NCBI GenBank assembly: GCA_000697665.1
Contig: KL197728.1
Span: 592,598 to 656,597, forward strand
Length of the DNA stretch: 64,000 nt
Direction: 5' to 3'
From: Jaapia argillacea MUCL 33604
Lineage: Eukaryota > Basidiomycota > Agaricomycetes > Jaapiales > Jaapiaceae
The notes under the pieces were generated by a model. It saw only the letters and a list, made by a program, of their open reading frames with translations, had not been told where the DNA came from and made no database searches. This document shows, one piece after another, positions 13,901 to 60,350 of the stretch; position 1 is the first letter of the stretch; the number at the start of each line of letters is the position of its first letter. A program made the translations under genes and the position numbers.

Positions 13901-14241
13901 AGTTCTATGACGAGTCTCCAATATTTCTGGACCTCATTGAAGGCCGATCCTCCAGTATTGGTGATGAAGGTGGGTCATCTATCAGGTCCTATTCTGAGTG
14001 ACGTTAAGGTTCCCATCCAGTCAGCCCCTTCGACAAACTTTCCACGCAACCGTCCCATATCGATGAATTAGGATGGATTTGCACGCCGTCTGAAAGGCAA
14101 TTGTGGTGGATTCCTCCTCCTTACCGCCCGTCAATGTTCGACGCAGTCTGGAGTAACCTCAAGAACCTTGTCTTGAACAACAGAGGTACAACGGTCGTCC
14201 TCTGCGGGGGTATCACACAAGATACCTTGCCTGGAGAATAA
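7981..14241 (+). CDS. NLR protein: C2-like - NACHT - WD40 repeats
   Basis: Predicted STAND-type NTPase immune or self/non-self receptor. Exons: 7981-8177, 8235-8353, 8429-8745, 8909-9104, 9157-9312, 9360-10155, 10187-10889, 10946-12496, 12583-13969, 14021-14241, giving about 1880 aa in frame. The N-terminus is C2-like (HSVKVTVGRQVKTSRE, then PSWPDLDFVF and RLMVEVFDH). A helical linker precedes the NACHT module: Walker A GVAGSGKSA, Walker B VVIVIDALDE, and FQWAHTAC after the ATPase core. WD40 repeats fill 11.1-14.0 kb (ITALAFSPDGTHLVSGDLDG, VTALAFSPDSAHLFSGYEDG and others, partly degenerate). The C-terminal signature GWICTPSERQLWWIPP is typical of the family. The junction at 10155/10187 needs either a 31-nt intron or a 1-nt frameshift. 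The first Met is uncertain; an upstream exon is possible. Confidence 0.85.
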
Positions 14242-26134: not shown

Positions 26135-28534
26135 TCATACAGGCGATGCGCAACTAAATGACGTCGCAGCGCCATTCTCAAACGTAACCTTGATAACCAT
26201 AACAGCTCCGTACAACCCTATCCATGCGAAAACGCCACCGTCAGCACACGACACCACTTTTTTCAAACAAAAAGCGTCTCAGGACTCACCAAGACCAGCA
26301 AGCGTCAACGAACCCAGGAACAACACAAAATTGAACAACTTGAACCACCACCTTCCCGAAAACATCGCTCTTTTCCACCTCGACAAACTCGTCCAACTAT
26401 CTCCAGGATCATTCTTCGCAGCGTCCACCACCATATCGAAACCAAGGAGGAAGAGTGGGGGAAAGGTGTATGTGAACTGCATGATGCAGATGGCCGCTAC
26501 GAGACTCGAGATCGTTTGTACTTGCGGGATGGCAGACCCTACGATGTACGCTACGAAAAGGTCGAATATAAGGTGCGGATCGCTTGAACAATCGACGAGG
26601 ACAGACCAAGCGCCCAATAAAGTATCACCATTCCTACAAACAAACACCCTTCAGTCTACAAGCCGAGTTTCGCCACCGAGACAAACTCACCAGTCCAGAT
26701 AAACCTTCCTTTCCTACTCATCAGCGGCGGCCCCCCAACCCAATCCTCCACAATCGAAATATACGCAATCTCTACAACCCCATCCCTCAGTAAGTACCAC
26801 CTTCTCGACATCCCGACATAGAAAAAACCACGACTCACTGATCCCAATATTCCCCAACAAACCAGCAGCGAATATCCCGGTAATCATCACGATCACATTC
26901 CCCATAGTCTGCCATGCATACCTACTCACACCTTGGAACGCCAAGGGAAGTGTGTATTGCCCTTGGAATGCATAGACGAACACGCCGTATAGCATGTAGA
27001 CCGTACAGATGAGCATTTGGGCGCACACCATTCCTTTCCAAAAATCCATTGGCCGTCTGCAAAGATTCATAAGTTCATGTGTTGAGATATGAAAGGGTTA
27101 GAGAGAAAACTCACCTCATCTCTGCCATGAACCTACGAACGAATCCCAATCAACATCATCCCAACCAAAATCATGAAAAGAAGCACTCGCTCTGGAAATA
27201 TCATTGCGCCCCCGTATGCATAAACCATGTTCATAATCCCATTAACCTTGGCCGAAATCGGTAAACTAACAAACGCGGATCGCTGTATAGGGCCAGAAGC
27301 AACAGCCGGTCCGTACGCAGCTGCAGCCGAAGCATAATTTGGCGGTGAATGAGCGACGAAACCCATAGAGGCGAATATGACTATCAGGTTGAGCCATACT
27401 GAGCTACACGGAACGGGGTCAGCCAACATAGAAGATGAAGGATGGGAAAACCCTACGAATTTGCTAGCCAGGTGTATGACTTCAGTGTCCTGATTTGTCC
27501 GATGACCATCCCCACTAACGCCCAGATGAGGATAGCGATGGAGAAACATATCTTATTATTCGTTGCTATTTGCTCGATGGATTGGGCGTTCGAGAGACAA
27601 ATCGTTCCCACCTATAAGTGTTCAAGACGACGTGAGTATCCAAACAGCACCAAGTGACGGTCAATAAAAATCGAAACACGGCAGTTCTTTTGAAATGCCC
27701 AAGCAAACGAACGACTCACGATAATGATCAATTGTATGCTTTGTAAAACAGTGCAGAGGTGCTTGAACCACTTTCCAAATATCCTCTCCGCAAGATCTGC
27801 GTATGTCTTCACCGGGTACCGGTCTGAATCGAGTTTCACGAAAAGACGCCAGAGGATGAGGCCAGTGTAACACGCAACCGCACCCACTACACAAAGCAGA
27901 AAAGAAGGGTTAGTACGTCTGGCGGTTCAAACTCTCAACAAGATCACAGAATATGTGAAAGAAGGGGAAAAGAAGGTGGGATTGGGAGCATATACTCACT
28001 CACGACGTACAAAATTACTCCAGGGACATATCCAACTTGACTAAACGCATATGGTGCGTTGAAAGGACCCAAGATATCCGTAGTGATCAAATAGAAAACA
28101 GAAGTCCAGCCAGCCGTGCGTAACGCTCGACGAGCCGTTATGATCTCTTCTTCGTGTGAGGAGAGCGAGGGTGTTTTCGTTCCCTTCTCTTGGAGTTCGC
28201 TGATTCGAGTGATAGAAGTTTTCGCAGGTAAGGAAGGTGACAGCGAGTGCTGGCGAGGCGAGAGCAGGGATGTACACGTACATAGATGCGGACTCCCCTC
28301 GAGCTTCACGAGCTCGAGAGAGTTCTGCATGGTCAAGATATGTTTGAAAGGGTACATGGTGTCGGGGAATCGGTTCGTGCACTGATTTTTCTGCAGGAAC
28401 AGACGTCAATGTCAATAGGACGAGAAGGGTATATCCAGAAACCTGAGAGGCAACATACCCGGTACCACGTACACCTCAGTGTCCTCCATCTTGACGGGTG
28501 CACCTTCACCACCGATGTTCGCAAGAGACGCCAT
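26135..28534 (-). CDS. Amino-acid transporter, AAAP family, copy 2
   Basis: Paralogue of the genes on either side, with the same exon order. It starts MASLANIGGEGAPVKMEDTE and ends TFENGAATSFSCASPV. Signature blocks: EIITARRALRTAGWTSVFYL, LGPFNAPYAFSQVGYVPG, RYPVKTYADLAERIFGKWFK, GFVAHSPPNYASAAAAYG, VNGIMNMVYAYGGAMIFPE, FVYAFQGQYTLPLAFQGVSR and TYTFPPLFLLGFDMVVDAA. It differs from copy 1 mainly in the cytosolic N-terminus and some loops. A GATA-rich block with a perfect 15-bp tandem repeat lies 90-155 nt upstream of the start (28625-28688), which suggests control by nitrogen-responsive GATA factors of the AreA/Nit2 type. No disruption seen. Confidence 0.85.
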
Positions 28535-28973: not shown

Positions 28974-31353
28974 CTATACAGGAGAGGTGCAACTAAAAGA
29001 AGTCGCAACACCATTCTCAAACGTAACCTTGATGAGGACCCCAGATCCATACATCCCTGTACAAAATAACCTTCAGCAACCCGCTGACCAAGACCAACAT
29101 ACGCAGAGGGGCGGCCAAAAAGACTCACCAAGCCCAGCTAGAACCACCGATCCTAGGAACAAGACAAAATTAAACATCTTGAAGAACCATCTTCTAGAGA
29201 AGGCCGCCCTCCTCCATCTCGACAACGAAGTCCAAGTGTCACCAGGATCATTCTTGGAAGCGTCTACGACCATGTCGAAGCCGAGGAGGAAAAGAGGGGG
29301 GAAGGTGTAAGTAAATTGCATGATCGCGATGGCCGCTACCAGGCCTGAAATGGTTTGGACCTGAGGAATTGCGGAGGCGACGATGAACGCTGTGGGGATG
29401 TGAGCAAGAAAAGATTCAAAGACATGCGCCAACGACAAACCGAGAGCCCAATAAAGGAGGACCATTCCTGGAGGCCAGACATAGAATAAATCTCAGAGCG
29501 ACGTCGATTTCACAAGCACATACCAGTCCAGATGAGCCGACCCTTCCTGCTCATCAGCGGAGGACCATTTATCCACTCCTCCACAATCGATATGTAAGCG
29601 ATCTCTGCGCAAAACAAAAGGAACGCCATCAGTAGAGATAAACACCCCCCAAAGTGGTGACACTCACTAATTCCAAGATTGCCATACAACCCAGCAGCCA
29701 CAATACCCGTAATCATCGCGATAGCATTCCCCATTGTCTGCCACGCATATTTACTGACACCTTGGTAGGCCAGAGGGAGGGTATACTGGCCTTGAAACGC
29801 ATAGACGAAGATGCCATAGAAGACATAGACGGTACAGACTAGTAATTGGGAGCAGACCATGCCTTTCCAGAAATCCATAGGGCGCCTATCGTGGAGAAGT
29901 CATTCTCTGCGGGATAAGGAAATAAGAGGATAGACGTACCTCATCTCGGCCATAAATCTGGGTGGCCCAACCAAGGTCGCGATCAGATCAGAGTTCAAGT
30001 GAAAAGAAAAGAAGGAAAAACGCACTCTGGGAAGATCATCGCGCCGCCGTACGCAGCGACCATCTGCATAATACCATTGACTTTCGAAGAGATGGGTAGA
30101 TTAACAAATACACCGGTATGAATCGGTCCAGACGCCACCTCAGGCCCGTAGGCAGCAGTTGCAGAAGCGTAATTTGGTGGTGAGTGAGCCACGAAACCCA
30201 TGGACGCGAAGATGACGATCAGGTTCAGCCACACCGAACTACGAAATCGATTCAGTAAGTCAGGACCATGAGGGGGATGGATTGGGTACTGGTAACATAC
30301 AAATTGGCCAACCATCCATAACTCTTCAAAGTCTGGATCTGTCCTATAACCATCCCTACAAACACCCAAATCAAAATGGCGACCGAGAAACAGATTTTTC
30401 GATTTAGAGCGATCTGTTCGATGGATTGTGCGCATGAAAGGCAGATGGTGCCAACCTAAAGAGTGAAGACGATGAACGTCAGTGTCGAACCAACCAAATA
30501 CGGTCAAAGGCAAAGGCGACTAATTGTCGCCGAATGGACGCAGTTGAATGACCTACGATGATGATCAACTGCACACTCTGCAGCACAGAACAAAGATGCT
30601 TGAACCACGTCCCAAATATCCTCTCTGCGAGATCCGCATACGTCTTTATAGGATACCGATCCGAATCGAGTTTCAGGAAGAGATGCCAGAGGATGAGACC
30701 TGTATAGCACGCTACTGCTCCCACTGCAAGAATAAAAAACGGTTAATAAACGTTGCTTCAAGACCGCATGTGACGATAACCGAGGGACAGGGAAGAAATG
30801 GAGAACAAAGAGGGTGTAGGGTAGCATATACTTACTAATGAGATACAGAATGACTCCCGGTGCGTACCCAACTTGACTAAATGCGTATGGCGCGTTGAAT
30901 GGGCCCAATACATCTGTGGTGATCAAGTAGAAGACGGACACCCAGCCTGCTGTGCGCAGAGCTCGTCGTGCTGTGATGAGTTCTTGCTCGTACGATGATA
31001 GAGACGGAGTTTCCATCTCTTTTTCTTGAGGATTGCTAACATTAGATATGGAGAGTTTAGAGGGGACGAAAAAACGGCAGAGATACGAAGGGGCGTTCGG
31101 ACATACGAAGTCGCTGGCTCCCCTCGCGCCTCGCGGGCTCGGGTGAGCTCTGCTTGGTTAAGATACGCTTGGAAGGGAATCTTCTGGGTGCTGCGAATGA
31201 CTTCTGGTCCTGGTTGTACTGGAAAGTGATGGAATCAATGTTGAAGCAGATAATATTAGAAGTAACAAAAGTCGCACCTGGAACAACATAAACATCGGCG
31301 TCTTCTATCTTGATGGGTGCCCCTTCACCAGCAATGTTCGCAATAGATGCCAT
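28974..31353 (-). CDS. Amino-acid transporter, AAAP family, copy 3
   Basis: Third member of the head-to-tail array. It starts MASIANIAGEGAPIKIEDAD and ends TFENGVATSFSCTSPV. Conserved blocks include ELITARRALRTAGWVSVFYL, LGPFNAPYAFSQVGYAPG, RYPIKTYADLAERIFGTWFK, GFVAHSPPNYASATAAYGPE, VNGIMQMVAAYGGAMIFPE, FVYAFQGQYTLPLAYQGVSK and TYTFPPLFLLGFDMVVDAS. The exon layout matches copies 1 and 2. It is the most upstream copy in the transcriptional direction. The GATA block at 31434-31483 lies 80-130 nt before the start. Intact as read. Confidence 0.85.
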
Positions 31354-33437: not shown

Positions 33438-34213
33438 TCATGTCTCCGTTTGCGCCTGTCCCTCCCCACCCTTCTGCATCGCCGCCATTATAACTCCAAC
33501 TTTCGCAGAAGCCTTCCTCGCATCAACCAACCCAACAACTTCGTTAGGCTTCCTCCACCCATCAGGTATCCTCTCCTCCCCATACCACTGCTCCAACCTC
33601 TCCTTCGGTACCACACCTCCATCCGTCACATCATCTCTCATCAACAACCAAGTCAACCCAGCTTCACCCCTCCCAATTTCCGCGTGAATCCCACTCAACT
33701 TCTTCCCGGGGGGTAACAAACCCTCCCTCCGTACCCTTGCACCCGCTAAATCCTCCAACCGAAAACCATCGATGTTGTGTGGACACGCAGCCAATAACGC
33801 TTCTAACAATTTCTTGTCTACACCTGTAGGTGCGTATTTCGAACCGGGAGTAGCGTCGGCGTGTACGAGAGACGCGTCATGTTCGATGGCATTGTGCAAA
33901 GCGAGGTCCGATAGTGATTCTAATTTGAGAGTTAGTAGGGACCCGCATGTAGCTATTCCTGATAGGGCTAGGATGGTAGAGAGAGGGTAGGAGAGGTTGT
34001 AAACTTCTCCGAGGGATGAGACGAGGGCTGAGAAGGTGATGTTCTTGCCGTCGCGAGGGCTAAGTGCGTGTCAGCCATGCGAAGAAGTAGGAGAGGGGGA
34101 GAGACGTACAGGTACCCGTGGTTGGCGAGGGTGTTGAGAGCTGGGCATGGGGCTCGGCTATCGCCTACACCGGCAGCACGGAACTCATGGCCCAAATTTC
34201 CTGGGGTAGACAT
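33438..34213 (-). CDS. Heme-thiolate peroxidase (chloroperoxidase/UPO family), short form
   Basis: Two exons (34213-34110 and 34059-33438; CT|gtacgt...ttag|C) encode 241 aa. The axial-Cys motif APCPALNTLANHGYLPRDGK puts the heme-ligand Cys near residue 23. The acid-base region reads HNAIEHDASLVHAD, matching the E-H-D/S motif of the family. Such enzymes use hydrogen peroxide to halogenate, peroxidise or oxygenate substrates. It starts MSTPGNLGHEFRAAG with no signal peptide, and its length fits the short unspecific-peroxygenase class, although those are normally secreted. It may be intracellular, or an upstream signal exon may be missing. No partner gene is evident nearby. Confidence 0.85.
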
Positions 34214-38327: not shown

Positions 38328-41300
38328 ATGCCCGTCGCTTGTGGCTACTGTAATCGAACCTTCAAGGATGCAAAGGCCGTCAAAAACCACATCTCAAACG
38401 CTCCGAAATGTCGCCTAATTTGGAAGCATCAGATGGAGAAGACTGGGACGGCGGCTTCCAAGGATGGACCTTCCACATCGACGAGTGCACCAGCATGGAA
38501 TGAGCCCGCAGACGACATTGCTGATGTTGAGGTGAATGACAAGGGTGGCAAGGAGGCTGGCGACAACTTTGTACCGCCTACTCATCCATTGCCAATGGAG
38601 GGGACTGATGGTTGGCAACGACGACAGCCCCGCGTCGAAGAGGTTGAGGATGAATATTTTCGGGACTTGAAGGGGGAGCGTTTCATTGAGCCGTTCATGG
38701 AGAAGCCAATTGCGACACAGATTCGCAAGGAAAAGACAGTGTTTGAGAAGCAACGAGAGGACGAGACCGGTGAAGATTGGAATCCGTTTCTTGATGAGGC
38801 CGAGTGGGAGTTAGGCCGGTGGCTTGTCCGTAATGTTGCTCAAACGAAGATCAACGAGTTTCTGAAGTTACCAATCGTGAGTGAGATGGTTGATACAAAC
38901 GACACACCAGCTTACCGTTGTCCAGACTCGAAACCGAACCCAACCCTCGTATCACAATGCTTACAATCTCCTTCAAAGGATTGATGAGCTTCCACATGGC
39001 CCAGAGTGGATCTGCGAGCTCGTCGACGTGACCGGAAATGTCTTGGGCGAAGACAAAAAACTGATGGTTGAGACGGTGGAATTGTGGAAGCGAGACCCGG
39101 TGGAGTGTGTTCGGGAGTTAATAGGGAACCCCGCGTTTAAGGAGATGATTTCCTATGTCCCAGAGCGAGTTTTTGCCGACAAGGAAGGCGAGACACGGGT
39201 GTATGACGAGATGTGGACGGGAGATTGGTGGTGGGAGGTTCAGGTAATGAATTTTGTTGTGATTAGAGGTAGTAGTGGATGTTGATTATGTGTGCGAACT
39301 GCAGGGAAAGCTTGCAGAGGGCGCGGTCATTGCGCCGATCATTCTTGCCTCGGACAAAACCAACCTCTCCCAGTTCCGTGGCGACAAAGCTGCATGGCCC
39401 GTATACCTCTCCATTGGAAACATCTCAAAGGAAACCCGCCGTCAGTCATCATCCAGAGCCAACGTTCTCCTCGGCTACATACCTGTCACGAAGCTCGACA
39501 ACTTCACTGAGAAATCTCGCTCCCTCGCTGGCTACCGCCTTTTTCATCACTGCATGGGTCTCATGCTTCAATCCCTCATCCAGGCTGGGCGTGACGGGGT
39601 GGAGATGACTTGTGCGGATGGTTGGGTCCGTCGCATCTACCCAATCCTGGCTGCATATGTCGCCGATTATCCGGAACAGTGCCTTGTAGCGTGCTGCAAC
39701 GAGAACCGCTGTCCGAGGTGTGTTTGCAAACCCAACGAGAAGGGTAACGCTGTGTGTTCGACATTACGAGATGAGGCTGCGACACTACAAGCGCTCTCTG
39801 ATCACAAGAATCACATCGATAACGAACGCTTCGAGGCGGAAGGCATACGCGCCGTCCACAAGCCTTTCTGGGCCGACCTCCCTCACTGCGACATCTTCTC
39901 TTGCTTCACTCCCGATCTCCTCCATCAGCTTCACAAGGGCCTCTTCAAAGACCACCTCGTGAAGTGGTGCCAAAGTGTCATGGGTGATAAAGAGGTCGAT
40001 GCTCGCTTCAAGGCCATGAACAACTATCCGGGTCTGCGACATTTCAAAAAAGGGATATCCTTGATCAAGCAGTGGACCGGAACAGAACAGAAGGAGATGG
40101 AGAAGGTCTTCGTTGGAGTTGTGGCTGGCGCCGTTCCGTCTCGTGTTTTGGCTGTTGCACGCTCCCTCCTGGATTTCATATACTATGCTCAGTTTCGATC
40201 TCACACCACCGACACTCTTGCCGCCCTTCAAAAGGCTCTCGATACTTTTCATGCAAACAAGGATGTTCTGATTGAACTTGATGTGCGGAAGAACTTCAAC
40301 TTTCCCAAGATGGCCTCCCTCGTCCACTACGTTCAAGCCATCAAATCGAAAGGTAGCGCCGATGGGTTCAACACTGAACTCCCTGAACGCCTCCACATTG
40401 ATTTCGCAAAGGAAGCCTATCGAGCAAGTAACAAACGCGACTACACGGAGCAAATGACGCGGTGGCTGCAACGTCAAGAAGCGATTGAGATGCGGACGTC
40501 GTATGTTGAGTGGAAGCGTGGGCGACGGAGAGATGTTGAAGTTGATGAAGATAGTGATGACGATGAAGATGTTGCGAAGGACCTTCAAGATGCCGTCGAA
40601 AAGGTGGCCGATGTTGTCGAGCCCGCCCGTAACTATCTGGTTGCTCGTGTTTGCCCGTCTCTCAACGTCACTGTAACGCGACTGGAGGAAGACTATGGTA
40701 CTGCCGACTTCTTACCTGCTCTATCGAACTTTCTTCACAATAACCTGCCTCATTGTTCCCTCCAACCAAATCGCATGGATCGTTTCAACCTTTACAAGCA
40801 AGTCATCATCTACATCGCTGCCAATCCTCACGCTACAGACAACATTCGCCTCGAACGGATACGGACGACAATCGCCAAACCAGCTAGAGGTCGTCACGCA
40901 GCGGTGCCTGCACATTTTGACACCGGGATCGTTATCCAAGACCCGGAGAAGTTCCGAGCTGGTACAGATCTTGAAGGTATGTTACGATGTGGCCTTCTGC
41001 TGATATCACCAAGATAACACACTTCCCAAATGCCCAGGACTACGTGTTGCTCAAGTCCGTGCAATCTTCCAGCTTCCACCTCAGTTCGGCCACTTTCCTC
41101 ACCCCCTTGCCTACGTTGAGTGGTTCACTCCGTTCCACAAACCAGACCCCGCAACCGGTATGATCATCCTCTCGCGGTCGACCCGTGATCGTCGTCAGAA
41201 CGCTGCGGTGGTCAGCGTTGATCGAATCATACGAAGTTGTCACTTGATGGGCAAGTCAACTGGCAAGATCGATCCTCGGTGGACGACAAATAACACTCTT

Positions 41301-41363: not shown

Positions 41364-41870
41364 GCACTGGAGTCTACACTCCACATATCCAACTAGAGAA
41401 ATAGCGAGTCAATCATATCCATTCATGCTCACCGTACTTGATCCTGAGGACAAATTGAGGTATGGATGTTGGTAGCACCCAGTAACGCCAGATTGTGAAA
41501 CATAGGTTACAGTGTTCTGGGTTTGCGGAATGTAGGACTCTGTATCACCATGAAGTGGCATATCGAACTACAGATCGATGTCCGTTGCTACATCAGCTAT
41601 GGAGCAGTTCCAGATGCACATCAAGAGCTATGGACCACGACATCAGCTACAGACTGCTATGGTGTCACCCCTGGAGCTACACGACGATAGGCCTTTTCCT
41701 GATGTAGCGTCCTATTGCAGCTTCCTGTGAGAGTCGGCCGTAGTTACTTGGTCTGATGGAAGGGGAGGGATCCAAGGCGACCAGAGAAGGCTGGCACTGG
41801 TGTGGTACACAAGTAGGTCATCCTCCAGCGCTACACGATTGGTCGCTTGATATAGCTTGATACAGCTGAC
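41364..41870. repeat. Right end region of the Plavaka element
   Basis: No gene. GCTACATCAG, AGCTACAG and GAGCTACACG occur at 41588-41680, in orientation opposite to most left-end copies, along with one GATGTAGCG near 41702 and a degenerate ATATAGCTTGATACAGC near 41851. This fits subterminal inverted repeats of the transposon. The terminus is not fixed. Confidence 0.4.
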
Positions 41871-47894: not shown

Positions 47895-49682
47895 ATGGAC
47901 TCGTTACCGACTCCCGTCTACTCTGCTTTCTCTTTTATTGGTTTCATCTTGGTTTTGGTGCCGTTTTATTGGCAGTTCGAAGGTGCAACCTTCAGCTACT
48001 TGAATCGTAGTATCCCGCCTAACCGTCGAACGCATCATAGTATGGAACATTGGAGCTTGTTGCTACATGGCGTGGACGGCCTTGCAGGTCCGTATCCTCG
48101 CTTTCACATCTCTCATCGGAGTCGCTGACGTTTGCACAGTGCCTGAACTTGTTCATTAATTCCGTCGTTTGGAATCACAACGCTATCAACTGGGCGCCCT
48201 TGTGGTGTGATATTTGTACGTTCCCTCATCCGGATTGTTGACTTTTGCTGACCATTTGTGAAGCCATTAGGATCATTCTTGCGGTGAACGTCGCAATCCC
48301 AGCCGCGTCATTATGTATCAATCGAAGATTATTTTACATCGCCAACGCGAAAGGTGTATTGACAGATAAGGCTGAAGTGAGCATTCGTTACCTGCGCATG
48401 GAACGACATTGGGTTCGGAAGCTTATTGGCCCCGTTTCATCCAGAAACGCCGCGCCATGATAGTCGATCTTTGTATATGTGTTGGCATCCCAATTTTGCA
48501 AGTCATATTAGGTACGGATCCCAATCCCAATTTCACTCCATCTCATTGTCCATGCAGCCAACATTGTTCAAGGACATCGATATGATATCTTCGAAGACAT
48601 AGGATGTTTCCCATTCATCTATCTCACACCCCCTTCCTTCCCCCTTGTATACGCCTGGCCCCTGGTGATTTCTCTCGTTTCAGCTGGCTACTGTGGTAAG
48701 TTTGTGCCACAATCTCTGACAGTATTCATCCAATTGATCGAAAATAGTTGCCACCATCCGTTCTTTTGTTCGTCTCCAAATCAACCTGAACAAGATCCTA
48801 GGCAAAAACACGTCTCTTTCCCGAAGTCGTTACTATCGTCTCATGGCTCTCGCCAGCATGGAACTCCTCTTTGGTCTCCCGTTATCCTCCTACGCTCTTT
48901 ACCTGAACTCCATAAGCCGTGTCGAACCCTATGTGAGCTGGGCTTGGACCCATTACGATTACGATCGCTTCTATCAAGTTCCATCGTTCGTGTGGAAGTC
49001 GAACCACAGAATGGTGGTGTCATTGGAGATGAGTCGTTGGGCGCCTGTGGCTTGCGCTTTGCTTTTCTTTGCCTTCTTCGGGTTGGCTGGGGAAGCTTTG
49101 AAGAATTATCAGGATGGGTTCAATTTCGTAGTGAGGAGGTGTAGTTTCTTACCCCGGAGTGCTCGAAAGTGCGTTCTCATTCTTAAAGGTTCTCCACGTA
49201 GATGATGACCTTGACTTTTGATTGACAGTTCCCAATTTGTCGCGCCTGCAGGACAACCCGCGCCTAAGATGAAACGCTTCACTCGGCCCGTCAACGTCTC
49301 CGTCGTTCTCTCATCCGCGGGTATGGAGTTCCCGGATAATGGATCGACGATGGACAATTCGTTCGTTTCAGGTGACTTGGAATCTGGTATGGCGGAACCC
49401 GCGATCGAAACCGATGCTCCTCCACTTTCGCATCTTCAGAACTGCGGTCAATTGGATCAGACTCTCACACTCGAGGAAGAGTCGCTTGTGCATGGGTATT
49501 CTGCCCCTCCGAGCTTACCGCTACCATCCGTCGTCACATTCATCGACAAAGTTCCCCACCCTCCCTCTCCAACACATCAGGTTCACTTGCCTTCGGATGA
49601 AAGTCTCTCCCGCTTCCCTCCACCGCCACAATCCTGTCCGTCACCCGAAGAATCACTCACCCAAAATCTTGACACTCATTAG
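47895..49682 (+). CDS. Ste3-type mating pheromone receptor, complete
   Basis: Seven-span GPCR that binds farnesylated peptide pheromones in basidiomycete mating. Exons 47895-47982, 48041-48087, 48140-48215, 48264-48376, 48445-48511, 48558-48695, 48748-49168 and 49229-49682 sum to 1404 nt, 467 aa. Family blocks: PVYSAFSFIGFILVLVPFYW, EVWNIGACCYMAWTALQCLN, FINSVVWNHNAINWAPLWCD, RIILAVNVAIPAASLCINRR, KRRAMIVDLCICVGIPILQV, NIVQGHRYDIFEDIGCFPF, YAWPLVISLVSAGYC, and RSRYYRLMALASMELLFGLP. The cytosolic tail is long and Pro/Ser-rich (MKRFTRPVNVSVVLSSAGME). Eight exons spliced by eye with no stop strongly indicate a functional gene. Whether it is a mating-type-specific or a non-mating-type STE3 paralogue cannot be told from sequence alone. 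Confidence 0.95.
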
Positions 49683-51207: not shown

Positions 51208-53621
51208 CTACTTGAAAATGAGTCTTTCTGTCGTCGGGGTCGCAAAACGGTCCAAAGTGACCTTGACCGTGCTACCTCGCTTCTGCACAATACTCTCAAA
51301 CTCGTCTCGGAACTGTGGGAATGCGTCCTTGTACGCAACCTCCTTGAGATATTCTTCAATTGGCATCTCGTGGACTTTCAATCCGCTCCACTCCTTGGCC
51401 CAATGAGGACGAGTATTGAGCGATTTACCTTCGCCGTCCTTGTAGGATGTCCACTTGTCGACGATCTGTTGCATGAAGGATTTCCAACCTTTCTCCTCCT
51501 TCTCCGATTTCGGTATGGTAGTCAGCACTTCGATCGAGATCGTGCCATTATCATTGCCGTATTGGGGGGCGAGGAGGACATCCGACCCTCCCGTCAATCG
51601 CATCTCCAACGCAACGCGTACAGGCGCATCTGGACGGCTGAAGATCTCACAAATGCCGTCCCACCTGTGTATTATGGAAGGTCAAAATCTTTGAAGTGGG
51701 AGCAAGGCGAGATGAATTCTCACCAAGCCACCTGGATGAGATTATAATCTCGTTCCCCATCCTTTGCTGGAATTGGGATCTCCCATTCAGTGTCCCGGCA
51801 GCGAAAGTTCTCTGGTGGAGTTTATGGGTTGAAGAAGATAGAAGAGGGGAAAGGCGAGACTCACGGATACCACGTCTGAAATGAAGCGCTTCGCTTACGT
51901 AGGTCTTGATGGGGTTTTTCACCGTCCTTTTCGGAAGAGAACACATTGCCCCCAAGCTAAATACCCATACTTGCCCCCAAGGCCAAAGCTTCTTGAAAGC
52001 AGAGGAGTTAAAGAGAGTGTCTGCCCACGAGGACGATTTCTACGTGATGGATGAGGTGACTTGACAGGCGAACCAGATGGGGTTAGATACCTCTTGACCC
52101 TTTTTACCAAACCAACCATCTCCAGGATACGCCTGCAATCCCATATCTTGTTGAGAAGATATGCCTCGTTCTGTGTTGATTTTACTGAGACTAACGAATT
52201 TGAGTGAAACAATCAAAGAACGCACTCTTCCAACTGTTCACCCAACATAGGGTCGAGCCGGGGAACCAAAACCATTCCAAATAATAATCCTCCTTGCATC
52301 GCTTGATGAATTTTAAACGTGCCTCCTCGAGTTTGGGTTGATCGATATTTGGCCAGCGAGACTTGATCAAGGCATCTACCTCAGGACGAGGATTCTTTGG
52401 CGGTGGGATGGCGAACAATAGATCTAGGTGGACGGGAACCATCTCCGCGATACCCATCTGGTCGAGTTGGAGAGTAATCGAAACGACCACGCCGAGCAAC
52501 CCAAAGCATCCACTCGCTGCCCGAAGCTCTTTTGGATCGTTGACCGTCTGAAGTACCCCGTGACAATCGACATAGCAGATTTCGACGACCAAGTCGGAGA
52601 GAGTAGTAGTCGAAAACCCGGATCCATGGCTCATCGTAGCGTTTGAACCACCAAAAGTGATTTCCACCATGATGACGTTCAAAGGGATACACCAGGTCTT
52701 ACGTTTATAACACCAGGCACGGAATTGTTCGTTTGTCGTCCCCGCCATGACCTTGCAGAACGTGTGGCCCTCCGGAGGTTCGCGGCCCGCAACGGAAGTG
52801 ACGAGCTCGATGTCTGAAAGTTCGGTTCTCCAGTCGTTCGGAGGGTCCTTGTACGGGAGTTGTGTGAGAGTTGAGTACGGGAGGAACATCATGATAACGT
52901 CGCCATCGGTTCCATACAAATCACTTCAGGAGATCTTAACATTAGCGAAGCCGCGAACACAAATCGAGAAAATTTACCTCCACGTATGGCGGAAACCTGC
53001 CACACGAACTTTCTTGCCATTGTCTTCAGCCCATTTCACCACCTTACAAACCCCTTCAACACTTCTCACGATAAGAGTTTGGCTTGGCTTGAACTCTACG
53101 GTCAGTCCCCAGTTGCGGAATGTCGAAGGTCCGCTGAACACCATCTCTTCAACTGCAGATTCCCCAGTTTTGAGAGGGGGAACATCAATTTGATTCCACT
53201 TGAAAGACCAGGGGACTGCAGCAACCTCGTGAATGTAGTGAGGTCCATTCGACTCGAGCCCAATCGCATTGATCTCCGCAATAGCCTCGTTGAGAGCAAG
53301 CATATCATCGATTTCGGGATTTTCTACGTTCTCCATGAGAGCAAGTACTGGTCTCAACTCGTCGAACTCGGGAGATTCTTGAATCGCGGCGATAAGCTCG
53401 GCCTGGATTTGGTCGAGCTATAGAAGGGTACTGAGCTCCAATGCTCTGGTCGACACCAGCAAACAGCTTACGTTGACAAACTCTTGTATCGCTTCTGCCT
53501 CTGCCATGGGAGGCGTGTTGGGTGTTTCCTAAGACGCCCAAGTCGACGTGATCAGATAAGATGAATAATGCACCACTCCAAAGAAGATACGCACCTCCGA
53601 CTCTATCTGTGTCGCAACCAT
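51208..53621 (-). CDS. FAD-linked oxidase, ALO/sugar-lactone-oxidase type
   Basis: PCMH-type flavoprotein; members oxidise aldonolactones or related polyols using oxygen. The start at 53621 (MVATQIESE) joins ETPNTPPMAEAEAIQEFVN and a leader rich in acidic helices. The FAD region reads TLIVRSVEGVCKVVKWAEDN, KKVRVAGFRHTWSDLYGTDG, and later GGSNATMSHGSGFSTTTLSD and ASGCFGLLGVVVSITLQLDQ. The C-terminal ALO-like part has RVALEMRLTGGSDVLLAPQY and LNTRPHWAKEWSGLKVHEMP. Multiple short introns lie between. The usual GSGHS-type FAD loop is GFRHTWS here, so covalent flavin attachment is not assured. Substrate unknown. Confidence 0.75.
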
Positions 53622-54518: not shown

Positions 54519-55179
54519 CTACCAAAAGAGAGATGCGGCGATGGGAAACGAGACCAGGATCGTCAGCGCCGCGCTGATCACGAAACCACCGCAAGCTCCG
54601 GCCTTCGCCGCATGAGCTGAATCAAGCAATACGACTGAGCCCGAATCAGCGAGAATGCGGACACCAACAACGGCTACGATGGCGCCTTAGGCTGTGCCTC
54701 GTGCTAGTCTGCTTCTCTCGCTGCTTCTTCTTTGCTTGTGTCCTCTCCTTTTGCTGATCTCGTGAACCATACATAAGAAAGCGGTAAAGGAGCTCGAGGA
54801 GGATGACAGGAACTCCAAACACTGTGCCTCCTACGGCCCCTGCTTTCGCGGACGAACCCAAGGGAGCCGAGTATCCAGGTTGTGCCCTTCGAAGGATTGC
54901 GTGTCCTAACAGGACTGAAATCGTGTCGATGAGGACTGTCATGCCCATGTAGGCGAGAACACGGCCTCCCTGCATCCAAAAGAACTGTGAGGTGATAGAT
55001 ATCCGGATGACGGCTTCATTGATAGAGTAAAGAACACCTTTGGAGTCGGTGTCGTGAGCTACGGGATTGGGTGTCAACCGATGGTGGTGGTCGGCGAATG
55101 CAGGGATGGTGTCGACGGAAAGACAACGAGTGAACGAGCGGGTGGCCGTCACTGGAAGTGGAAGAGTAGGCTCCGGCAT
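54519..55179 (-). CDS. Tandem membrane-protein paralogue, copy 1, 192 aa
   Basis: Unrecognised family. Two exons (55179-54768 and 54685-54519; G|gttcac...ctaag|GC) restore a single frame ending ILVSFPIAASLFW. Likely membrane segments: GRVLAYMGMTVLIDTISVLL with GHAIL, AGAVGGTVFGVPVILLELLY, GAIVAVVGVRI, and AKAGACGGFVISAALTILVS. It matches copies 2 and 3 at GHAIL, the Gly/Ala segment, and SAHAAKAGACGG (against PLHAAGAGALGA). Unspliced, the frame runs into a basic KKKQREKQTSTRH tail, so the intron is a choice, supported by homology and phase. It is the most diverged copy. N-terminus (MPEPTLPLPVTATRSFTRCL) is cytosolic-looking. Confidence 0.6.
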
Positions 55180-55925
55180 GGTGCGACACTATCGGGGACT
55201 CGCCTTCACATCGAGGATGGATTTTCGATTCGGTACTTCGATATGTAACAATCTGGATGGCCCGTATGACATGATATCGACGTCACATCTCACCCATGAG
55301 AAGGATTTCATCGCGAGACGCGAGAAAGCATGGATTCCCGAAGCGACCCTCGGAGAGAAGGTAGTCAGGTGGCATTGGCCAACATGCAAAGAACTAGAAA
55401 CGTCACGGCGCAGGATTCCTGGCATAGTATGACATTAGTTGTTTGTGGGTGCAAAAATAGCCAAAACTGACCTCAACTAGCGTCGAAGGGCACTCGGTGA
55501 CACAGCTGAGGCTTGCACAGAGAACATATTGTGTTTGGTGGCTCCAGGAGAATTCGAAAGGTCGTGAGATCCGTGGCTTCCATCGGTCACGCTTCAACGT
55601 CACGGGTTACATATCACATCTCCATGGATTGGTAGACTTGGAACGGCGTCTCTTATACGAAAGTTGATAGCAAGCAATCCTTTCATATAGAATGGATTGC
55701 ATGGATTATAGGATGTCAAGCATGCCATGGTTCGTGTCGAGGAATTCTGGGTGGACAATGCAAATTTGTCATGTAGTGTTATCAAGACGACGTCTACCAT
55801 CGAGCTCAAGTTACTTTAATTACAGATGGTAGTGTCAAAAAGTATATCAAAATGCTTGGAGAAAATGATGGGAGGTATATGTACACGAGGGAAGAAGGGG
55901 AAATCAGGAGCACAACCGACTAGGT

Positions 55926-56429
55926 CTATTGGCACCACTGGAGGTGATAGCAGAGCGTCACAAACGCGCACACACACAACACGACCACTACGACTGGGCC
56001 GATCACAACCGCGCCAAGAGCGCCAGCACCGGCTGCGTGAAGGGGACTCAAGGCATTGATAACATGAGAACTCTTGAATAAGCTGGCCCCTATCGCACCA
56101 GTAATGGCGCCGTTGACAGTCGCCTCGCAAACGAACCATAAATACCGGCTGAAGAGCGCTTTCAGCGTGAAATTATGTGATTGCGGTCTGAGGACTTCCA
56201 GGACCCGGTCCAACAGAAAAAACGGCATGCTCCACACCAGTGCACCGAGCACTCCAACATTCACAGAGGAGTAGAGGGTCGAATCGTAACCCTCGTGTGA
56301 AGTGGCCCAAAGAATTGCATGACCTACGAAGATGTAGGCCACGCTTGGGAAGGTGAGAAACGCAAACCGAAGCATGTTGACAAAAAATCGGCAATGGCAT
56401 GGTGGCGCAGGGAACGGGTCTCTGTCCAT
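55926..56429 (-). CDS. Tandem membrane-protein paralogue, copy 2, 167 aa
   Basis: Single exon. Four hydrophobic segments: MLRFAFLTFPSVAYIFVGHA, VGVLGALVWSMPFFLLD, CEATVNGAITGAIGASL, and AGAGALGAVVIGPVVVVVLC followed by VCAFVTLC. The loop TSHEGYDSTLYSSV is almost identical to TSHKGYDSTLYSSV in copy 3, as is the NALSPLHAAGAGALG region (NALDPLHAARAGALG). The N-terminal cytosolic part is much shorter than in copy 3 although the start codons sit at equivalent DNA positions. I recognise no family. Small-residue motifs in the last two segments suggest tight helix packing or assembly (inference). Confidence 0.7.
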   Translation of the reverse strand: MDRDPFPAPPCHCRFFVNMLRFAFLTFPSVAYIFVGHAILWATSHEGYDSTLYSSVNVGVLGALVWSMPFFLLDRVLEVLRPQSHNFTLKALFSRYLWFVCEATVNGAITGAIGASLFKSSHVINALSPLHAAGAGALGAVVIGPVVVVVLCVCAFVTLCYHLQWCQ

Positions 56430-56562
56430 CGTGTGGCGAACGATGAGCGAAAGCTTCGGTCAAGGTTACGATCCCAGTAGTTGTGAGATTTGTTACTGGT
56501 GGTTTGAGACAGCAAGAATTGGGAGGATGGCAAGGCGAGCGGAGGAGAGGGTGGCAGAGAGG

Positions 56563-56600
56563 GTGATGAATCACAGTAGCATTTCGGCAGCCCTCTTATA
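56563..56600 (-). promoter_or_regulatory. Conserved promoter elements of copy 2
   Basis: A GTGATGAATCAC inverted repeat (56563-56574), 134 nt upstream of the start, and a TATAAG box (56595-56600 on the minus strand), 166 nt upstream. Both are found at exactly the same distances from the start of copy 3. Confidence 0.55.
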
Positions 56601-57794
56601 CTCTGGTGATGTGGCGACTTTAGTCCTGAGTGTCGCTGAGTGGGGCCAAATCGAACAATGCAATCAACTCCTACTTAGCTAGGACTAACAAGCTGCAGTG
56701 GGAGCCTCGTGCCACTTGGCCGTCGTCATGGACACGGCAGAGTTGTTGGACCATGTCGATTGTGAAGAGGGTAGTTTAGGCAAGACTAGAGGGTCACGAG
56801 GACGTAGATCCTCACTGACATGGCAGCCAGCTTGGTGAAATGCTGACATATTTGGTTCCGTTGTCGAGCCTATGCTGATTGTCAGCCAGAACCCAGGACG
56901 ATAAGTGCGGCACCGAACAAGAGAGATACGAGAGTCAAAGTTAGCAGAGCAGTGACTGTGACTGGTTGCGCCAGGTACGCATCTCTGATGGTCGTCCCCA
57001 CGTGGCGCGCCCGTCGAAATTGATTCTCGTCACCTTTTGCCCCTCCTTTGATAGTTGTGAACCATGAACCTATCTGGAGACTCCTTATAAGATATGGTAC
57101 GATGAACCTATCCCAAGATATTCAAGCCTACTCGATGGCACTGAGGTCGGCAGCCTTGAGGAACTTCACACTTCCTCCACGCCACGGGACTGTTGTGGCA
57201 TATCCCTTTGTTTCGAACTTCGAGTCTCTTCTTCTCGTAACATGGCCAATCGCCTGCACGTCAGAGGGTGCCTCTGACCAGCTCGAGGGTACCTCTGCTC
57301 CGCTTAACCCATTTGAACGTATCCATCCGCCCGCTTTTTCACGCGACCACGGACCAAGCTAAGAGGCGCACACCCGAAGCACCAGGAAGGTGAAAGACAC
57401 CGCTGCAGGACTCCTGGCGTAGTATGACATCAATTGTTCGTGGATGCAGAAATTGCGTCGAAAGTGACGCTCAACGCAGAGGAACAACTCTGCTTTGTGG
57501 TTCCGATTGAAGAGGTCGTGCCACACTTCTCCCCTCGCCTCTCACCATCCTTTCATTCACTTTTATCCTTCATGGATGATAACGATTGTATGTCAGAAAT
57601 TTTATGGTCTCTGTACGAAGAATCATGGGTAGACAAATTCACTAAGCAATGCCATCAAGACGGCAGCGTCTGCCCTCGGGAACTCGACTTAGACATGGCA
57701 GCGGTAAAAATATGTGTATCAAAATGCTTGGAGAGATAATGATGGGAAGTACATAGGGGAAGAGAGGGAAAATGAGGAGTACAACGGTCCAGGT

Positions 57795-58436
57795 CTACCG
57801 CCGGACGAAATAGCAGAAAATCACACACACGCACACGGATACCAGGACCGCTTCGACTGAACCGACCACAACCCCGCCAAGAGCGCCAGCCCTGGCGGCG
57901 TGAAGAGGATCCAAGGCGTTGTGAACATGATGCCTCTTAACTAAGCCAGCCCCCATAGCACTAATAAAGACGCCTCTGAGAGTCGCGTCACAAACATACC
58001 AAAGACACCACTTGAATGACAACCCATCCCCCCTCCTCCAAGGTGGTAGCGGCTTGAGCTTGAGGGCTCTCGAGACCCAATCGAACAGAAGAGACGGAAT
58101 GATCCATACCGACACTCCGAGGGCTCCAACTTTCACAGATGAGTAGAGGGTCGAATCATAACCCTTGTGTGAAGTGATTCGAAGAATAGCATGTCCTACT
58201 ACGATGTAGACCACGCTTTCGAGGGTGATGAGCGCCATCTGGAGAATCTTGACAAAAATTCCACGGGTGCATGATGCGCATGACGCCTCAGTGGTCGATG
58301 TAGCGTCGACGTCTGTCCCTGTGTGCGTCCGTCTTGAGGGATGTGGATAATAATGGTGTGGGATGCCGATGGGGACATCCGTTCCTGATTGTGGGTCTGC
58401 CATCTGTACTGGCGGAGGGAGGGTGGCTCCGGACAT
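57795..58436 (-). CDS. Tandem membrane-protein paralogue, copy 3, 213 aa
   Basis: Single exon. A 60-residue polar N-terminus (MSGATLPPPVQMADPQSGTD, His/Tyr-rich HHYYPHPSRR) precedes four hydrophobic segments: ILQMALITLESVVYIVVGHA, VGALGVSVWIIPSLLFDWVS, CDATLRGVFISAMGAGLV, and AGALGGVVVGSVEAVLVSVC with VCVIFCYF. Closely related to copy 2 across the whole membrane region and more distantly to copy 1. No signal peptide and no domain I can name. Confidence 0.7.
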   Translation of the reverse strand: MSGATLPPPVQMADPQSGTDVPIGIPHHYYPHPSRRTHTGTDVDATSTTEASCASCTRGIFVKILQMALITLESVVYIVVGHAILRITSHKGYDSTLYSSVKVGALGVSVWIIPSLLFDWVSRALKLKPLPPWRRGDGLSFKWCLWYVCDATLRGVFISAMGAGLVKRHHVHNALDPLHAARAGALGGVVVGSVEAVLVSVCVCVIFCYFVRR

Positions 58437-58569
58437 TGTGCGGCGAACGATGAGCGAAGGTTTCAGTCAAGGTTACGTTCCCAGTAGTTGTGAAATCTGT
58501 GACTGGTTGCTTGAGATAGCAAGAATTAAGAGGATAGCGACACAAAAGGAGGGGAGGGTGGGAGAGAGA

Positions 58570-58607
58570 GTGATGAATCACAGTGCCATTTCTGTAGTCC
58601 TCTTATA
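58570..58607 (-). promoter_or_regulatory. Conserved promoter elements of copy 3
   Basis: GTGATGAATCAC at 58570-58581 and TATAAG at 58602-58607 (minus strand), at 134 and 166 nt from the start codon as in copy 2. Confidence 0.55.
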
Positions 58608-59340
58608 CTTTGGCGATGTGGCGACTTTGGTGCTGATGGTCGAACCTGTGCTAAGTCGGGCCAAATCGAACAATGCAATCAACTGCCAGGTAGGACTAAC
58701 CAACTGCAGTGGGAGCCTCATGGTACTTGGGCAGTGTACTTATCGCCAATCAAAGAGAGGAACGTGTCGAGATGGCCCCGGCAGAGTACGTGTGAGATCA
58801 CCAATGGGGAGAGACCTGGGGAGGCTTGGACAAGGACTGATTGTAAGAAGTGTAGTTTGGATGAGCGCTCCGATTATGATTGGCACCTTCGCTGACATGG
58901 TAGCTGGCTTGGAAAAATTGTACCGTAGCAAAATACTGCGGACTTGCTGCCATTGTCGAGCCTATGCTGATTGATTGTCAGCCGGAATTCAGGTCAATAA
59001 GAGTGGCGTTGAACAAGAATCGTTGTCGGCAGAGCTTGCTGCTGTGACGGTGACTCGTGACTACGGATCTCTCCGATCCTCGCGTGGCCTGCCCGCGTTT
59101 GCTAACTTACTGTTCCCCTCACCCTTTGCCGCTCCTTTGATAGAGCTTATGAACCATGAACCTGTCTGGAGAGTGTGCTTATAAGATATGGGACCATGAC
59201 CCTCTCTAAGCTTACTCTATGGGCCCCAGTAGCCTTGGGAAACTTCACACTTTCTCCACGCCATTGGACTGGTGCATATCCTTTGTTTCAAACTTGAAGC
59301 CTCTTCTTCTCGTAGCATGGCAAATGTCCTGAGCACCAGA

Positions 59341-60350
59341 GGGTGCCTTCACTCAGTGCGAGGCTACTAAAAACTCCCTTTGAAACATATCAATTCTTCC
59401 GCTCTTTCCACGCGTCCACGGACCTCAAATTGGCTCTGCTTCTGCGAAGTCCATTCCGAGCTACATACCAAATTGCTAGTACTATTCAGTCCCTACTACT
59501 GGATCACCACTCTAACTATGTACTTTGTCAATGACGCCTATGATCACGACGGATCAAGAGTCGCCCACCGACAAAGTCTCTCTCCGATGTCCTTCACTAT
59601 CATGGATCTAATCTTCAATCCTCGTCTCATACTCAACCTTCCTTCTCATTCCAACCTTCTTCAAAACCCTCCGTACAATCGAACGTCACTCGTGGATCAC
59701 CTATGAGCACGCGAGATCATCCGACCTCCGAAAGAGCGAATCAACTCCCTCGCTCGGGAAAACCTATATCTACTCCCAAGTCTTCCTCGCGCCTCAGCGC
59801 TGTGGCTATCTTCCCTTCTTCCCTTCTTCCCTTCCTCACTGCATTCCTTCTGGAGGATCCCAATCTGCGCCTCATGAGAAACCCCACGCGAGCCGGCGGC
59901 ACCACACCCTTCCCACCCACAAATACAACTCAACCCATCTATCCTCGGACCCACTTTCCCCGACGTTTCCCAGACACTTCGCGGTTGTAAGTATCACCCC
60001 CTCATCCAATCAAGGTGTATATCGGACTTGCAACGATCGTCACCATGCGTACTGATCATGATCTGTCGTGTCTGATGCTTCGCGTGTAAGGGATAACTGC
60101 GAGTGTGTGTGATGATTACACGAATATAAACTATTTATGCGATTTGTGAGATTTTGAGCAATACAGAGTCCAAGGGTACCAAGAACTACAAGGGGGTGGG
60201 GGTCACGTACATACAACAAAGTCGCATACAACATTGAATACCTACAATTGATGAGGATTGCACCAACAATGCTAAGGAACCTCGAGAAAATGCGAGTCTA
60301 ATGAAATAATGAATCGTCCTCGGATGCAAAATCATGAACCATGATCCCGA
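59341..60350. other. Intergenic, no supported gene
   Basis: A plus frame at 59703-59990 (95 codons, Pro/Ser/Thr-rich) has no domain and no clear splice partner. Otherwise I see nothing. Confidence 0.35.

Follow-up and report, generated by a model that had tools for sequence, protein, structure and literature searches.

The V-ATPase proteolipid c subunit is made of two tandem two-helix hairpins with Gly/Ala-rich packing and an acidic residue at the membrane. Proteins of the Tim17 family, as PMC5072337 describes them, cross the membrane in four glycine-rich spans that often hold glycine zippers, with charged residues between the second and the third. A partly similar layout is predicted for a group of small proteins encoded in a 64,000-nucleotide (nt) stretch of the Jaapia argillacea MUCL 33604 genome (contig KL197728.1, positions 592,598 to 656,597), which we call the window and which lies on contig C20 in our numbering. 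Three related sequences, copies 1 to 3, stand there in the neighborhood of a gene for an STE3-like pheromone receptor. Such receptors are often multiple in Agaricomycetes and often lie near mating-type genes, and some are described as having no mating role; no function is agreed for them, and one suggestion is self-recognition (PMC8305134, PMC8970355), as has been proposed for the non-mating STE3-like receptors of S. commune (PMC8305134). A preliminary description of the window took the three sequences for a triplicated family with a possible role in mating. The analysis reported here points instead to a wider family with a doubled hairpin, of which the window holds what looks like an ordinary case of birth-and-death turnover, namely a dead older paralogue and a fast-changing tandem pair.

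A Small Family at Six Places in the Genome

Searches of the whole genome (43.7 Mb in 95 contigs) found the family at six places, the three in the window and C6:1338855, C61:130812, and C27:177247, whose members are named here after their contigs. The identical six places were returned by each of four queries (copy 3, the C6 protein, exon 2 of C27, and copy 2), with copy 2 reaching copy 1 at E 0.07 only; the search scores the best candidates only, and the count of six is bounded by that. A search with the C6 core, at E up to 10, gave no further places and no single-hairpin relative. C27 has a probable first exon and a 60-nt intron with a GTATGT donor, and a family profile built without C27 matches it at 98.8% in hhalign (E 5.7e-17).

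The C6 and C61 proteins are 54% identical over 224 aligned residues. The differences between their genes fall 75, 54, and 134 at codon positions 1, 2, and 3, so that the third position accounts for 134 of 263, and the ratio of nonsynonymous to synonymous divergence (dN/dS) is 0.24 at a synonymous divergence (dS) of 1.6. Open-frame length was rejected as coding evidence, since shuffled DNA yields equally long frames: the 5.8-kb region, shuffled 500 times, gave a longest frame of 164 codons in the median, of at least 177 codons in 176 shuffles, and of at least 223 in 26. The proteins are taken as products of real genes because their relatives are conserved, as seen between C6 and C61, and not because of the length of their frames. 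The window proteins belong to a real, small, and unrecognized membrane protein family.

The preliminary description had recognized no family, and this is borne out in Pfam, NCBIfam, and the PDB. For the six members, Pfam gave nothing above cut-off and, at E up to 10, chance scores only (Syndecan, 0.91; DUF6961, 0.45), with HMMER filters discarding most matches above about E 0.1. No NCBIfam match exceeded the curated cut-off, and PDB sequences gave no match at E up to 10. The C6 protein had no relative among bacteria, archaea, viral contigs, and plasmids, two of these searches being sensitive to close relatives only. These collections contain no fungal set. Searches of the open PMC library, which lacks most subscription journals, and passages of PMC5072337, PMC8305134, and PMC8970355 gave no description of the family.

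One Hairpin Used Twice

By hydropathy, C6, copy 2, copy 3, and exon 2 of C27 have four spans each, in line with the four-span proteins of the preliminary description; C61 shows five hydrophobic windows, and each of the two copy 1 pieces shows two. An N-terminal tail rich in Ser, Thr, Pro, and His is present in C6, C61, copy 1, and copy 3. When profiles of the first and second halves of the proteins (six rows each) were compared, hhalign scored 38.4 (E 4.3e-7) over 65 columns. By comparison, 100 column shuffles had a mean of 9.7 (standard deviation 1.7, maximum 14.4), a reversed half scored 7.2, and five Tim17 pieces, which set the scale for other membrane proteins, gave 9 to 16 against the family profile. 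Within C6, GHAILRATHSGYSVPLVSSMKAGAVGG of the first half matches GVCILRNAGVDGMLDNLHAARAGALGG of the second. Judged by these profiles, each protein is one two-helix hairpin unit used twice, and its halves are homologous. The doubled hairpin is the most interesting feature of the family and was missed in the first reading.

Small residues are concentrated in both hairpins of C6, as AGAVGGAVFG in hairpin 1 and HAARAGALGG in hairpin 2, and span 2 carries GxxxGxxxG in C6, C61, and copy 1. An acidic column late in span 2 (E129 of C6) is E or D in all six places. The His of LHAAR (H195 of C6) is likewise kept in six of six, and the His of GHAIL in five of six, with Gln in C27. The motifs named in the preliminary description are largely as stated: GHAIL occurs in all three window copies and YDSTLYSSV in copies 2 and 3, and the terminal HAAxAGAxGG segment is found in copy 1 (HAAKAGACGG) and copy 3 (HAARAGALGG), with copy 2 (HAAGAGALGA) falling just short of the final GG. 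Among the loops, the middle one carries the highest positive charge in C6 (+3), C61 (+4), copy 3 (+5), and, by a small margin, copy 2 (+2); in copy 1 the charge following span 2 is +6. These loop charges suggest that the middle loop is cytosolic.

An AlphaFold2 model of C6, computed with six other rows, has a predicted local distance difference test score (pLDDT) of 72 and four helices (43-99, 107-147, 156-184, and 193-233). With this model as query, Foldseek returned 101 matches to PDB folds at E up to 10, the best at 0.75 and none at 0.001, a miss that is weak evidence given the pLDDT of the query and its predicted template modeling score (pTM) of 0.50. The best match in a fold search of viral models, E 0.22, is not meaningful.

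A Tandem Pair and a Broken Older Paralogue

The three window copies lie in a row on the same strand, as first described (Table 1). The preliminary description also placed each inside a duplicated segment, which does not hold for copy 1: the repeat of about 2.0 kb contains copies 2 and 3 only. Its two direct units adjoin, with one family copy each, and their alignment is clear in and near the coding part. The short N-terminus of copy 2, noted earlier, exists because of a 135-nt in-frame gap relative to copy 3. A match of 71 columns between 55410-55477 and 57405-57475 (82% identical) was considered as part of a unit around copy 1 and rejected; it marks the starts of both repeat units. The 81-base stretch at 57400-57480 was considered as a mobile repeat and matched nothing in the rest of the genome (E up to 0.1), in a search that also missed the related 55410-55477 (about 82%) and so is blind to diverged copies.

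In copy 1, the frame shifts near 54690-54705, after the tail and spans 1 and 2, and a TAA at 54687-54689 lies in the frame encoding the C-terminal half. The C6 paralogue covers both pieces in tblastn, with stops in the second. The break could be spanned by any of twenty candidate introns of 40-250 nt; 8 of them have a GT donor (GTTCGT or GTTCAC) and the other 12 a GC donor. The corresponding stretch is read through without an intron in C6, C61, and copies 2 and 3. The candidate introns are judged weak and splicing across the break unlikely, and copy 1, which has no intact unspliced reading, is judged to be a dead gene. Its N-terminal piece is 49% identical to C61, 42% to C6, 32% to copy 2, and 30% to copy 3. 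In a small tree of N-terminal halves its partner is C61 (support 69), and copies 2 and 3 form a pair (98); the pair recurs in a small tree of C-terminal halves (96), where copy 1 is placed with C6 and is separated from copies 2 and 3 by a split with support 81. By these trees copy 1 is an older paralogue and not part of the tandem pair. The supposed triplication is thus a pair and an older broken paralogue, with three more members on C6, C61, and C27.

Between copies 2 and 3, dN/dS is 0.83 (bootstrap 0.54-1.34, 158 codons), and differences fall 43, 35, and 46 at the three codon positions; taken by itself, this dN/dS would fit neutral drift. Other measures speak against pure drift. In neutral simulations that start from the present-day sequences with a transition weight of 2, both frames stayed open in 175, 54, 30, and 13 of 4000 runs (0.3-4.4%) at total divergences of 0.18, 0.25, 0.32, and 0.37. 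Replacements hit 38 of 95 positions where C6 and C61 agree compared with 42 of 65 where they differ (p 0.004), and 12 of 37 positions shared with C27 compared with 60 of 110 others (p 0.02). The four gaps in the coding part all keep the frame (6, 135, and a 13/4 pair with a net of 9), and 19 of 25 flank gaps between the repeat units are not multiples of three. The proximal 5′ flank is less diverged (46 of 287, or 0.160) than the coding part (135 of 494, or 0.273; p 3e-4), the distal flank (111 of 454; p 0.007), and the 3′ side (130 of 389; p 2e-7). An antisense gene in this flank is not supported, as its 35 differences lack codon phase (13/8/14). A fair reading of these comparisons is that copies 2 and 3 are under weak but real constraint. 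The preliminary description had named a dN/dS near 1 together with frequent stops in other isolates as signs against its proposal; half of that pattern is seen in this one genome, with 1 inside the bootstrap range for copies 2 and 3 and a stop in copy 1.

The STE3 Neighborhood and Other Features of the Window

Table 1. Positions in the window of the family copies, their repeat units and flanks, and the neighboring genes.
Feature	Position	Strand	Basis and remarks
Copy 1, broken	54522..55179	-	Tail and first two spans in N-terminal piece, 54706-55179; last two spans in C-terminal piece, 54522-54686, which uses another frame
Copy 2, 167 residues, four spans, shortened N-terminal tail	55926..56429	-	Frame, motifs, hydropathy
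Copy 3, 213 residues, four spans, long S/T/P/H-rich N-terminal tail	57795..58436	-	Frame, motifs, hydropathy
Direct repeat unit 1 (~2.0 kb), contains copy 2	55405..57400		Alignment, patchy at 55460-55810
Direct repeat unit 2 (~2.0 kb), contains copy 3	57400..59425		Alignment
Proximal 5′ flank of copy 2	56430..56720	-	TATA-like TATAAGAGG ~165 nt before ATG; less diverged than coding part
Proximal 5′ flank of copy 3, counterpart of copy 2 flank	58437..58730	-	Alignment
STE3-like receptor exons, not family	48128..49109	+	STE3 matches
Oxidase-like gene between STE3 and family	51208..53357	-	Weak ALO match 51208-51681

The family was first described as lying beside STE3. It is in fact a neighbor at some distance, starting 5.4 kb from the receptor gene with an oxidase-like gene between. 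The latter assumes that three frames form a single gene: the first has the ALO match (E 1.7e-4, 21.8 bits, below the cut-off of 23.1), 52191-52925 has no match, and 52974-53357 has a weak Thiamine_BP score below cut-off. A genome search for STE3 gave 62 exon-level matches on C50, C47, C20, C75, and C23, most of them in dense clusters on C50 and C47. Several contain stops, and these may be broken receptor copies or matches that span introns. None of the STE3 matches listed is on C6, C61, or C27, so that one of four family loci is near STE3. The chance that at least one of the four would fall within 10 kb of STE3 is about 2%, a rough, post hoc hand estimate based on six STE3 clusters. That the family lies close to a pheromone receptor is probably a coincidence. 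To assign these four-span proteins a role in mating is an unsupported guess, because the receptor gene lies 5.4 kb off behind another gene, the other family contigs have no listed STE3 match, and non-mating STE3-like receptors are common. Of the lineage-specific expansion next to the receptor that had been proposed, the local expansion stands and mating-linked selection is unsupported.

Elsewhere in the window, a Plavaka transposase frame is found at 39263-41017 (+; Pfam E 8.5e-97), together with a second, partial Plavaka match at 1387-2610 (-) that lies just below cut-off (E 8e-6). The first of these, with the many STE3 exons, fits a mushroom-forming basidiomycete. A NACHT (nephrocystin-3-like) NTPase frame at 9317-10189 is followed by a WD40-repeat frame at 10946-12655 (+), both with Pfam matches, and by a WD-like frame on to 14001; we take 9317-14001 (+) to be a STAND-type gene, as in fungal non-self recognition. 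Two similar hydrophobic frames at 27944-28405 and 30504-31157 (-) share RALRTAGW.SVFYLITTD.LGPFNAPYAFSQVGY.PGVILY, have no Pfam match at E up to 0.001, and look, from their likeness, to be a duplicated membrane-protein gene. A frame of Peroxidase family 2 at 33438-34070 (-; Pfam E 2e-31) is presumably chloroperoxidase-like. Outside the window, a small Cys-rich frame, CNVGTLNCCNSV, lies next to the C6 family member (L003 3165-3629, -) and resembles a hydrophobin in its motif.

A Proposed Doubled-Hairpin Bundle and Its Alternatives

The arrangement that we favor, with a probability of about 0.5, is a family of small membrane proteins that form doubled-hairpin bundles assembling with themselves or with a partner, the C20 copies being dispensable extras in birth-and-death turnover. 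Each protein would consist of an N-terminal tail and two tandem copies of one two-helix hairpin. The hairpins would pack via their small-residue stretches into a compact bundle with two-fold pseudosymmetry, the tail and the middle loop would face the cytosol, and the bundle would assemble in the membrane with itself or a partner, as a scaffold or as a small unit for transport or assembly. On C20, where the copies would be expendable, copy 1 would have died, and copies 2 and 3, about half of whose residues now differ, still have open frames and a proximal flank that has diverged less. If this arrangement holds, the family shows in simple form how a natural membrane protein can arise from the doubling of a single hairpin, and its paralogues, of which C6 and C61 change slowly, copies 2 and 3 change fast, and copy 1 is dead, would help in tracing the evolution of doubled membrane folds. 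Several observations weigh against this proposal. C27 and copy 2 lack GxxxGxxxG, and copy 3 has it in hairpin 2. The middle loop of C27 has a charge of -1, which disagrees with a cytosolic side. The C6 model has the modest pTM given above, the other four of its five models have pLDDT values of 51.6 to 56.3, and a model of copy 3 (pLDDT 54.5) was useless and not used. The dS behind the C6/C61 dN/dS of 0.24 is near saturation. Finally, the assembly function is argued entirely from composition and by analogy.

The same data on the tandem pair can be read in other ways. It is conceivable, if rather doubtful, that copies 2 and 3 have already lost their function and are drifting neutrally, leaving only C6, C61, and C27 at work. 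A dN/dS indistinguishable from 1, the near-even spread over codon positions (43/35/46), the dead copy 1 adjoining, and a copy 2 without most of its tail and without a glycine zipper would all suit such decay, which is opposed by the rarity of two surviving frames in the neutral simulations (0.3 to 4.4%), by changes that avoid conserved positions, by frame-keeping coding gaps set against flank gaps of which 19 of 25 are not multiples of three, and by the conserved proximal flank. That flank, less diverged than the coding part (0.160 vs. 0.273), also figures in a quite different proposal, in which copies 2 and 3 are mating or self-recognition proteins diverging under positive selection alongside the STE3 receptor. 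Open frames kept at a dN/dS of 0.83 with a bootstrap reaching 1.34, a locus less than 10 kb from STE3 (about 2% by chance, by the rough hand estimate), and the self-recognition suggested for non-mating receptors of S. commune (PMC8305134) would agree with it. We consider it very improbable, for changes are depleted at conserved positions, which is the opposite of targeted diversification, copy 1 is broken, and no STE3 match is listed on C6, C61, or C27. In addition, multiple STE3-like receptors, some of them described as non-mating, are frequent in these fungi (PMC8305134, PMC8970355). A strict single-frame scan of the window for CaaX precursors, run without a positive control and such that split or unusual precursors would escape it, gave one unconvincing frame, 41578-41730.

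Two further proposals concern what the proteins are. Least probable of all, in our view, is that they form a divergent branch of Tim17/22/23 (PRAT) that works in a membrane of mitochondria or peroxisomes. In favor are features that PMC5072337 gives for Tim17, namely the four-span layout, the charges in the loop that joins span 2 to span 3, and, in C6, C61, and copy 1, a GxxxGxxxG within span 2. One of the five Tim17 pieces from this genome, L037, scores 15.9 against the family profile, just over the shuffled maximum of 14.4. The other four pieces score within the shuffled range, in a comparison of low power in which the Tim17 pieces matched among themselves clearly in 2 of 10 pairs (32.6 and 24.4; a third scored 18.4). 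PF02466 is absent from the six members at E up to 10, within the HMMER filters noted above. Its 8 matches in the genome, on C11, C46, C4, C19, C2, and C14, include none of the six family places, and those above cut-off are other genes on C11, C46, C4, C19, and C2. The PRAT motif, [GA]xx[FY]x10Rx3Dx6[GAS]Gx3G, occurs in none of seven family rows and in three of the five Tim17 pieces. A bolder and quite unlikely proposal is a fungal-specific membrane fold with two-fold pseudosymmetry that arose when one Gly/Ala hairpin was duplicated, unrelated to Tim17 or to solved structures, with the tandem copies near STE3 kept expressed and turning over residues fast, as in recognition or conflict proteins.

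Comparison with Known Systems

What links the family to the non-mating STE3-like receptors of Agaricomycetes is the STE3 gene 5.4 kb from it. The family proteins are only neighbors of such receptors: they match no STE3 family in Pfam and have four spans where the receptors have seven. Like Tim17/Tim22/Tim23, the family has a charged loop between spans 2 and 3 and, less evenly, Gly-rich spans, four by hydropathy in C6, copy 2, copy 3, and C27 (exon 2), with a GxxxGxxxG zipper in C6, C61, copy 3, and copy 1 and none in copy 2 or C27. Its proteins may, by analogy, pack in a Tim17-like way. The two differ in that the family has neither a PF02466 match nor the PRAT motif, and Tim17 membership is not established by these comparisons. 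They differ too in the significant hairpin duplication of the family; PMC5072337 describes none for Tim17, the word "duplication" being absent from its main text. No match to the V-ATPase proteolipid c subunit is among the Pfam matches of the family at E up to 10, there is no significant fold match, and membership is not claimed. The likeness to that subunit is an analogy of layout only: in both, a single chain carries two homologous hairpins.

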